This document shows positions 62,234 through 64,000 of a stretch of DNA of 64,000 bases, piece by piece. This DNA comes from Armatimonadota bacterium (GTDB lineage: Bacteria > Armatimonadota > Fimbriimonadia > Fimbriimonadales > Fimbriimonadaceae). Numbering within the stretch: the first letter of the stretch is position 1; each line of letters starts with the position of its first letter. The notes under the pieces are model-generated. The model made no database searches, had not been told where the DNA came from, and saw nothing but the letters and a program-made list of their open reading frames with translations. Made by a program: the position numbers and the translations under genes. The stretch spans positions 1 through 64,000 of the forward strand of contig JAKOXK010000001.1 of NCBI GenBank assembly GCA_029781035.1, in the 5' to 3' direction.

Positions 62234-62392
62234 CACTGACGCGGGGGCCGTCGGCCCCCTAAAAACCGGGCACCTGCGCGCGCTGAAGCGCTCAGGTGCC
62301 CCCCACTTCTCAGCGCAACAGGCAACCCAAGAAGCCGCGGTCTCTCCTTCTCCCGAAACCCTTTCAAGACAATCCAGGTATAATACTCACAC

Positions 62393-62503
62393 AGTCTAAT
62401 CTGGGCAAAGCCCAGAGCGGGGGAACCAACCCTGGGGTGAATCCCGATTCCATCGGGAGGAGTAACTTTCGGCTCTAACCCGGCAGCTAACCTCGCCGAC
62501 GCA
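62393..62503 (+). ncRNA. ydaO-yuaA (cyclic di-AMP) riboswitch aptamer
   Basis: TAATCTGGGCAAAGCCCAGAGCGGGGGAACCAACCCTGGGGTGAATCCCGATTCCATCGGGAGGAGTAACTTTCGGCTCTAACCCGGCAGCTAACCTCGCCGACGC matches the conserved ydaO core (GAGCGGGGGAaCC...TTGGGGTGAATCC...ACCCGGCAGCTAACCTCG). TATAAT at 62379-62384. Confidence 0.96.
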
Positions 62504-62539
62504 TCGAAAGAGTGCGCGATTCCGCGCCCTCACCGACCT

Positions 62540-62564
62540 GCGCAAAGGAGGTGCATTCTTGCGC
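62540..62564 (+). promoter_or_regulatory. Hairpin placing the leader-ORF Shine-Dalgarno in its loop and start codon in its stem
   Basis: GCGCAA-aggaggtgcattc-TTGCGC. Confidence 0.55.
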
Positions 62565-62648
62565 GAAGCTTATCGCAACCCTGTTGCGATCTTGGGGCTG
62601 GTCTTTGGGCAAGCCTCTCATGAACACGCCTTTCAGGAGGCCCTATGA
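62559..62648 (+). CDS. Putative 29-aa leader ORF coupled to the downstream dehydrogenase
   Basis: AGGAGG-N7-TTG; (M)REAYRNPVAILGLVFGQASHEHAFQEAL, with TGA overlapping the next ATG (ATGA). Not in the ORF track. Confidence 0.45.
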   Translation: MREAYRNPVAILGLVFGQASHEHAFQEAL

Positions 62649-63790
62649 ATCAGAACAAACGTTTTGCTGTTTTGGGGGCAGGAAATGGAGGCCAGGCCAT
62701 GGCCGCCCACCTGTCGCTCAAGGGTTTCCCCGTCAGTTTGTGGAACCGAAGCCCGGGAAGGCTGGCTTCCGTGTTGAAGACTCATTCGATCCAACTCGTG
62801 ACCGAGGTCGACGGCCTCGAAGGTGGCCGAGCGCAGTTGGAACTGGTCACAGAGGACATTGGCAAAGCCGTCCGCATGGCCGAGATCGTGATGGTCGTCG
62901 TCCCGGCGACCGGACACAATGACGTCGCACGGCAAGCCGCGCCCTACCTGACGGATGGTCAGTTGATCGTCCTGAATCCGGGACGGACGGGGGGCGCCCT
63001 TGAGTTCCTTAAAACCGTGCGCTCCTCTGGGAACAAAGCCGAGATCCTCGTTGCCGAAGCCCAGACATTGATCTACGCCTGCAGGGCTCTCAATCCAGGG
63101 CAAGTCAAGGTGTTCGGGATCAAGAACAGCGTTCCCGTCGCTGCGATCCCTGCCCATCGGACCCCCGAGGTCGTCACAGCCCTCTCTGCCGCGTACGCCG
63201 AGTTCGTGCCAGGTGACAACGTGATGAAGACGAGCCTGGACAACATCGGCGCGATCTTCCACCCCGCGGTCACGATCCTGAACACAGCCAGGATCGAGAG
63301 CACTCGCGGTGATTTCGAGTACTACATCGAGGGTATCTCCCGGTCTGTCGCACAACTGCTTGAGAGGATGGACTCTGAGCGCGTCCAAGTTGGAGCCGCG
63401 CTTGGGTTCAACTGCATTTCGGCACGGGAATGGCTGTACTTGGCCTACGGAGCCTCGGGAAAGACGCTCTTCGACGCGATCCGTGCCAATGAGGGGTACT
63501 ACGGGATCAAAGCGCCTCACACCGTGGACACGCGGTACATCACTGAGGACGTACCTGCCAGCCTGGTGCCGATTGCCTCGATCGGCGAGCAACTCGGTGT
63601 TCCCTGCCCGACGATCCGGGCGATCATCCACTTGGCCAATCTGATCCATGGCTGCGATTACTGGCAGACCGGCCGGACTGTGCGGTCGATGGGACTTGAA
63701 GGGCTCAGCCTCCGTGAGATCCAGCACCTCGTACTCATGGGATCTTCCGAGGTCAAAGAACAGGAGGTGAAAGTTGCCGAGACCGCTTGA
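62645..63790 (+). CDS. NAD/NADP octopine/nopaline dehydrogenase family protein (opine dehydrogenase-like)
   Basis: FAVLGAGNGGQAMAAHLSLKGFPVSLWNRSPGRL...VMVVVPATGHNDVARQAAPYL...DNIGAIFHPAVTILNTARIES...ISRSVAQLLERMDSERVQVGAALG. AGGAGG Shine-Dalgarno. Confidence 0.93.
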   Translation: MNQNKRFAVLGAGNGGQAMAAHLSLKGFPVSLWNRSPGRLASVLKTHSIQLVTEVDGLEGGRAQLELVTEDIGKAVRMAEIVMVVVPATGHNDVARQAAPYLTDGQLIVLNPGRTGGALEFLKTVRSSGNKAEILVAEAQTLIYACRALNPGQVKVFGIKNSVPVAAIPAHRTPEVVTALSAAYAEFVPGDNVMKTSLDNIGAIFHPAVTILNTARIESTRGDFEYYIEGISRSVAQLLERMDSERVQVGAALGFNCISAREWLYLAYGASGKTLFDAIRANEGYYGIKAPHTVDTRYITEDVPASLVPIASIGEQLGVPCPTIRAIIHLANLIHGCDYWQTGRTVRSMGLEGLSLREIQHLVLMGSSEVKEQEVKVAETA

Positions 63791-64000
63791 CCATAACGAC
63801 GTAGTGGGACTGGTCCACCCCTATCTCGATGCCCACACGCTGGGCATCAGTTCGGTCAGCCAGTTGCTGGTAGAAGCCGGATTCCGTGTCGCCGTTGCCG
63901 GGGAAAGCGCCTGTATCGCGGCACAGAACCCTCGGTCAGAAAACCTTTTTCAGCCGCTCGTCGATTGGATTCGACGCGAGCGTGTCACGGCCCTGGGCTT
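63774..64000 (+). CDS. Cobalamin (B12)-binding domain protein, probably a B12-binding radical SAM enzyme (partial, runs off the end)
   Basis: AGGAGG-N6-TTG; (M)PRPLDHNDVVGLVHPYLDAHTLGISSVSQLLVEAGFRVAVAGESACIAAQNPRSENLFQPLVDWIRRERVTALGF. DAHTLG fits the DxHxxG base-off/His-on motif. Overlaps the upstream gene by 17 nt. Confidence 0.75.
   Translation, partial: MPRPLDHNDVVGLVHPYLDAHTLGISSVSQLLVEAGFRVAVAGESACIAAQNPRSENLFQPLVDWIRRERVTALG

Follow-up and report, generated by a model that had tools for sequence, protein, structure and literature searches.

A c-di-AMP riboswitch-controlled operon linking an opine dehydrogenase to a glutamate mutase-like B12 protein: a putative compatible-solute pathway

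An osmolyte aminomutase gene is known to be regulated by riboswitches for Na+ and c-di-AMP, the latter ligand being the OFF signal, and cell-wall genes are also among the targets of the c-di-AMP class (PMC9337991). In Dehalobacter, a c-di-AMP riboswitch precedes a set of genes for modified-amino-acid osmolytes that includes a mutase gene, ablA (lysine 2,3-aminomutase), and osmolyte genes of this type are recurrently linked to alkali-metal riboswitch classes (PMC9337991). The cassette described here, found in an Armatimonadota genome, resembles ablA in both respects. However, AblA is a radical SAM aminomutase producing beta-lysine, whereas the cassette encodes a B12-dependent glutamate-mutase-like enzyme (MUT), an opine dehydrogenase (ODH) and an amidotransferase (ASN). 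N-(1-D-carboxyethyl)-L-norvaline dehydrogenase (ArODH, PDB 1bg6) and the metagenomic mODHs (PMC10787698), which share the fold and the His-Asp dyad with the cassette ODHs, have been studied as biocatalysts, and a text search of PMC10787698 found nothing on gene neighbourhood or osmotic role. Reciprocal double mutants showed that, with pyruvate as the second substrate, the amino acid preference of these dehydrogenases switches between L-Asp and L-Phe according to R111/G198 versus A111/N198 (ArODH numbering); the mODHs, carrying R111/G198 like the cassette enzymes, prefer L-Asp with pyruvate (PMC10787698).

Glutamate mutase (methylaspartate mutase S and E chains, PF06368) has a DxHxxG B12-binding domain and a TIM-barrel in common with MUT. 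MUT differs from it in being a single fused chain with the B12 domain at the N-terminus, in having no Pfam match in its long form and in keeping, tentatively, two of the four substrate-binding positions. Two known systems are comparable with ASN. In the pathway of N-acetylglutaminylglutamine amide (NAGGN), an acidic osmolyte is capped by an asparagine-synthase-like amidotransferase, as proposed for ASN, but no Ngg-type acetyltransferase or ligase was seen at the cassette, which has ODH and the B12 mutase in place of these. Beta-lactam and carbapenam synthetases (1jgt, 1q15) are AsnB relatives devoid of the N-terminal Cys1 and act on N-carboxyalkyl amino acids. Relatives of the cassette include such Cys-less partners, whereas ASN itself retains Cys1 and the glutaminase motifs, and all cassette partners are nearer to asparagine synthetase B.

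The analysed window comprised 64,000 nt, corresponding to bases 1-64000 of a contig of 116,453 bp (C58). The features of the operon were as follows.

62383..62515, + strand: c-di-AMP (ydaO/yuaA) riboswitch aptamer (RF00379, 77 bits versus a gathering cut-off of 38, E=3.9e-16, full model 1-134)
62516..62644, + strand: leader between the aptamer and ODH (expression platform)
62645..63790, + strand: ODH, opine dehydrogenase, 381 aa (PF02317, E=5.6e-49; 1bg6, E=2.6e-84)
63774..64000, + strand: window part of MUT, B12-dependent mutase-like protein with the DAHTLG motif (C58:63774-65669 in full)
C58:65654-67138, wholly beyond the window: ASN, AsnB-type amidotransferase, 494 aa, third gene of the operon

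The MUT gene starts with a TTG codon at 63774, with AGGAGG located just 5' of it, and overlaps ODH by 17 nt, in agreement with the earlier note, which had described a translationally overlapping ORF with DAHTLG after the dehydrogenase. The window contains 75 aa of MUT before its edge, and the contig encodes the complete protein of 631 aa, the 3' end of whose gene is overlapped by ASN. Since MUT overlaps both ODH and ASN, the operon was considered to consist of three genes, ODH-MUT-ASN. Its regulation and the classes of its enzymes are well supported.

The aptamer was the sole Rfam match in the window and began 10 nt 5' of position 62393, taken previously as the start of the feature. The Rfam search bore out the view of this element as a near-consensus ydaO/c-di-AMP aptamer. 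The claimed control of the operon by c-di-AMP is supported by this match together with the recurrence of predicted aptamers upstream of the relatives' cassettes, and a diadenylate cyclase (c-di-AMP synthase) is encoded in the host genome. No intrinsic terminator or terminator-like site was found in the window leader (62516-62644). A candidate hairpin formed by GCCTC (62613-62617) and GAGGC (62637-62641) spans the Shine-Dalgarno sequence AGGAGG (62635-62640) of ODH; because its folding z-score was merely -1.2, pairing over this site is treated as a possibility and not as a result.

The window ODH scored 166 bits against Octopine_DH (PF02317, cut-off 30), and its best match in the PDB was ArODH. 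It possesses the catalytic His202/Asp297 dyad as well as R111/G198 (ArODH numbering). Among the ODHs encoded in the cassettes, both R111 and the dyad were present in 75/75 sequences and G198 in 74/75, with several of these rows representing the same genome from two collections and rows with identical starts removed. The ODHs paired with a shorter form of MUT had R111 in all 10 readable sequences and G or A at position 198. In the control set of unrelated plasmid ODHs, R111 occurred in 0/6 and N198 in 5/6. Given R111/G198, the most likely substrates of the cassette ODH are pyruvate and an L-amino acid of the acidic (Asp/Glu) type. The initial annotation as an octopine/nopaline-type dehydrogenase was therefore right as to the opine-type enzyme (PF02317, 1bg6), but the signature is that of an acidic substrate and not of octopine or nopaline.

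The DAHTLG motif was conserved in 16 of 17 MUT orthologues, with DAHMLG in the remaining one. In an alignment of 47 long-form sequences, the His and Gly of DxHxxG were invariant and the Asp nearly so, and the short form retained His and Gly only. No MUT was found on plasmids. A radical SAM B12 enzyme, for which the earlier note had suggested looking past position 64000, was ruled out, as CxxxCxxC is absent from the full 631 aa; the B12-dependent step itself is supported by the B12 motif and the predicted fold. Searches of Pfam, NCBIfam and the PDB with the single sequence and with a profile gave no convincing name for MUT, so a fold comparison was needed. The AlphaFold model of the orthologue from genome G066, which is 55% identical to MUT and also riboswitch-linked, had a pLDDT of 90.2. 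Its top Foldseek match was the glutamate mutase E chain 1cb7_B (E=1.5e-11, probability 1.00, TMt 0.64), followed by ornithine 4,5- and lysine 5,6-aminomutases. Judging from this model, the assignment of MUT to the glutamate-mutase superfamily, in a branch without a curated family name, is well supported. The Met_asp_mut_E profile (PF06368) matched neither the window MUT nor any of the 47 long-form members. In the shorter sister family, which occurs in the same phylum and is also paired with ODH, the B12-binding domain was matched, and one short-form relative exceeded the Met_asp_mut_E cut-off (29.1 versus 26.6).

The nearest fold being glutamate mutase, MUT might be that enzyme proper, converting glutamate to 3-methylaspartate, which ODH would condense with pyruvate and the AsnB-like enzyme would amidate at the beta-carboxylate; the regulation and the osmolyte role would be unchanged, and both partner enzymes belong to types that use aspartate as a substrate. 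The catalytic residues of glutamate mutase, which we take to be R66, R100, R149 and E171, agree with the counted motif positions. MUT could be aligned only weakly to true MutE by hhalign, at a probability of 1.5% for the long forms alone and of 49% once short forms were included, hence the residue equivalences are tentative. In this weak alignment, made partly by eye, R66 and R149 plausibly correspond to R220 and R299 of MUT, whereas no acid was found at the counterpart of E171 and no Arg at that of R100. With two of the four glutamate-binding positions unmatched, free glutamate is probably not the substrate of MUT. Moreover, true Met_asp_mut_E proteins were encoded alongside the cassette in 4 of 20 genomes tested. 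The identity of MUT with glutamate mutase was thus regarded as improbable, and a new family of adenosylcobalamin (AdoCbl) mutases, acting more likely on the N-substituted opine, was preferred. A PduO-type cobalamin adenosyltransferase was seen in the host genome only as two complementary fragments on two contigs (G000 C24:8691-8882 and C7:102196-102393), which may represent a single gene split during assembly.

ASN starts with MCAIVG, thus keeping Cys1, contains the glutaminase motifs and matched PF00733 and NF006949 above the cut-offs and, in keeping with the NAGGN parallel, TIGR03104 below that model's cut-off. The possibility that it is the only asparagine synthetase of the genome was rejected, as other AsnB-like genes are present. 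The third enzyme of the cassette varied among relatives and was AsnB-like with Cys1, AsnB-like without Cys1, an ATP-grasp protein similar to D-Ala-D-Ala ligase or another ATP-grasp protein. As in beta-lactam synthetase, the N-terminal Cys was lost in the AsnB-like partners of nine loci (L071, L076, L084, L085, L094, L106, L117, L133 and L159), and some of these proteins lacked a large part of the glutaminase domain as well. Their nitrogen donor may be ammonia or an internal amine, with a lactam as the product. Because Cys1 is missing from the AsnB-like partner in several relatives, the formation of a primary amide is not assured. In three loci (L132, L143 and L144), the operons read ODH-MUT-Ddl-like ligase-ornithine-racemase-like protein (386 bits with the Orr model, cut-off 480), hinting at a step involving a D-amino acid.

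ODH adjoined or was near MUT in 67 of 80 MUT loci taken from the genome collection, which represent about 18 phyla as judged by record title. The earlier note had held its reading open to refutation by related genomes in which the elements were separated; they were contiguous in many genomes. The loci without ODH were mostly from Aminicenantes, from contig ends and from a few Clostridia. In seven Aminicenantes loci (L088, L096, L097, L099, L100, L101 and L121), MUT had neither an adjoining ODH nor an amidotransferase; being unpaired, it may have a different substrate in these genomes or work with partners encoded elsewhere. In a locus of Aenigmatarchaeota (L119), MUT was split into two ORFs with no ODH nearby, which could reflect a split gene, contamination or a pseudogene.

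In eight Bacteroidales loci (L087, L092, L116, L120, L125, L135, L142 and L145), the ODH-MUT pair was located within polysaccharide-type clusters also containing genes for an ATP-grasp ligase, a DegT aminotransferase, glycosyltransferases and flippase-like proteins. Glycosyltransferase, DegT aminotransferase and ATP-grasp ligase genes likewise accompany the pair in Azoarcus and some others. It is conceivable, though unlikely, that the operon product is an opine-type building block of the envelope (a polysaccharide or wall substituent) and that c-di-AMP control reflects a cell-wall role, consistent with the cell-wall genes under c-di-AMP riboswitches (PMC9337991). However, the cassettes of the window genome and of those riboswitch-controlled relatives that were inspected had no such genes next to them, and two further associations point to osmolarity and ions. 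An nhaA-I (Li+/Na+-class) RNA was located ahead of the cassette in two additional loci, from Lentisphaerae (L112) and Spirochaetaceae (L136). In 20 genomes, genes for MscS-type mechanosensitive channels formed part of the cassette or adjoined it, several of them between ODH and MUT, with a smaller channel-like protein called MscS-type on a modest Pfam match (E=2.7e-6). Between the two products put forward in the earlier note, an osmolyte is thus the likely one and an envelope compound the weaker, even though polysaccharide loci of Bacteroidales carry the pair.

In 13 genomes, the cassette was immediately preceded by a c-di-AMP riboswitch. Four of these genomes carry the long form of MUT (the window genome, G066 of the same taxonomic order, G173 and the Firmicute G323), and nine carry the short form (G220, G241, G243, G234, G233, G226, G227, G221 and G203). 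This survey was not blind, as regions upstream of known cassettes were inspected; it covered 30 short-form loci (8 with a riboswitch) and the long-form loci of 19 Armatimonadota and 50 other genomes. At the sensitivity used, no c-di-AMP riboswitch was detected at many cassettes. The riboswitch-led cassettes had the gene orders ODH-MUT-ASN, ASN-ODH-MUT, ODH-ASN-MUT and ODH-MUT, and this variation indicates that the coupling of riboswitch and cassette is not a single inherited arrangement. In G220, the operon would read riboswitch-ODH-MUT-MscS-ASN across two contigs, whose presumed joining is based on an end overlap of 138 nt at 98.6%. In G176, the riboswitch was ahead of an AsnB-like gene alone. 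Terminators were predicted 3' of the aptamer in L106, L158 and L196, in contrast to the window, and this aptamer-terminator order would fit an OFF switch. At another locus, a c-di-AMP-controlled ODH-MUT pair was followed after ~2.5 kb by a c-di-GMP-I riboswitch (L178:6752-6841).

Taken together, these data make it probable that the operon serves the osmotically controlled synthesis of an amidated opine, derived from an acidic amino acid and used as a compatible solute, with the participation of a new family of AdoCbl mutases. The substrates, reaction order, product, osmolyte role and OFF direction in the host genome are what we infer from gene content and comparison. High c-di-AMP, signalling no osmotic distress, would let the riboswitch hold the operon off, and a drop in c-di-AMP under osmotic stress would allow synthesis to begin. 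ODH would then link pyruvate by reductive condensation to an acidic amino acid (L form, Asp/Glu type). MUT would catalyse a carbon-skeleton rearrangement, either of the amino acid before this condensation or, with greater likelihood, of the N-substituted opine after it, and ASN would convert a carboxylate to an amide, thereby lowering the charge. In relatives, the co-encoded MscS-type channel could release the solute. The wider proposal, that a new AdoCbl mutase family rearranging an acidic-amino-acid opine forms the core of a widespread riboswitch-controlled compatible-solute pathway in about 18 phyla, is put forward tentatively and is slightly easier to doubt than to accept.

Opine dehydrogenase reactions are reversible, and opine formation in animals serves redox balance. 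Combined with the scattered distribution of both the long and short sister forms, this would accommodate a catabolic or redox role, in which an opine-like compound is degraded or recycled, or NAD(P)H is balanced, and c-di-AMP control is indirect. Such a role seems highly improbable, since the operon also encodes an amidotransferase or ligase that consumes ATP, which speaks for synthesis, and the osmotic partners recur.

The solute pathway, if confirmed, would link three orphans, namely an unnamed family of B12 enzymes, ODHs to which no role in the cell has been assigned and c-di-AMP riboswitches of little-studied phyla. A new class of compatible solutes and a directly testable substrate are among its predictions, and it would widen the c-di-AMP regulon. 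To our knowledge, it would also be the first osmolyte pathway requiring B12 carbon-skeleton chemistry. As stated in the earlier note, no characterised pathway with this arrangement is known: no description of an ODH combined with a B12 mutase and a c-di-AMP riboswitch was found in the literature searched, and the novelty is provisional because the riboswitch gene surveys of Nelson 2013 and Block 2010 were outside the scope of this search.

The host genome contains two c-di-AMP riboswitches, the second of which (G000 contig C83:28653-28787; L007:6653-6787) is located upstream of a gene for an MFS transporter weakly matching CntE. Together with the presence of an opine dehydrogenase, this could recall the synthesis of an opine metallophore of the staphylopine type. 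The transporter fits tetracycline-type MFS models better than CntE, being below both cut-offs, and neither a nicotianamine-synthase-like gene nor a metal uptake system was seen in the cassettes. A metallophore pathway is therefore barely credible and was rejected for the absence of its partner genes. The arrangement of riboswitch and MFS transporter was likewise found in G107 of the same genus (L061), and G105 (L060) probably carries a broken version of it.
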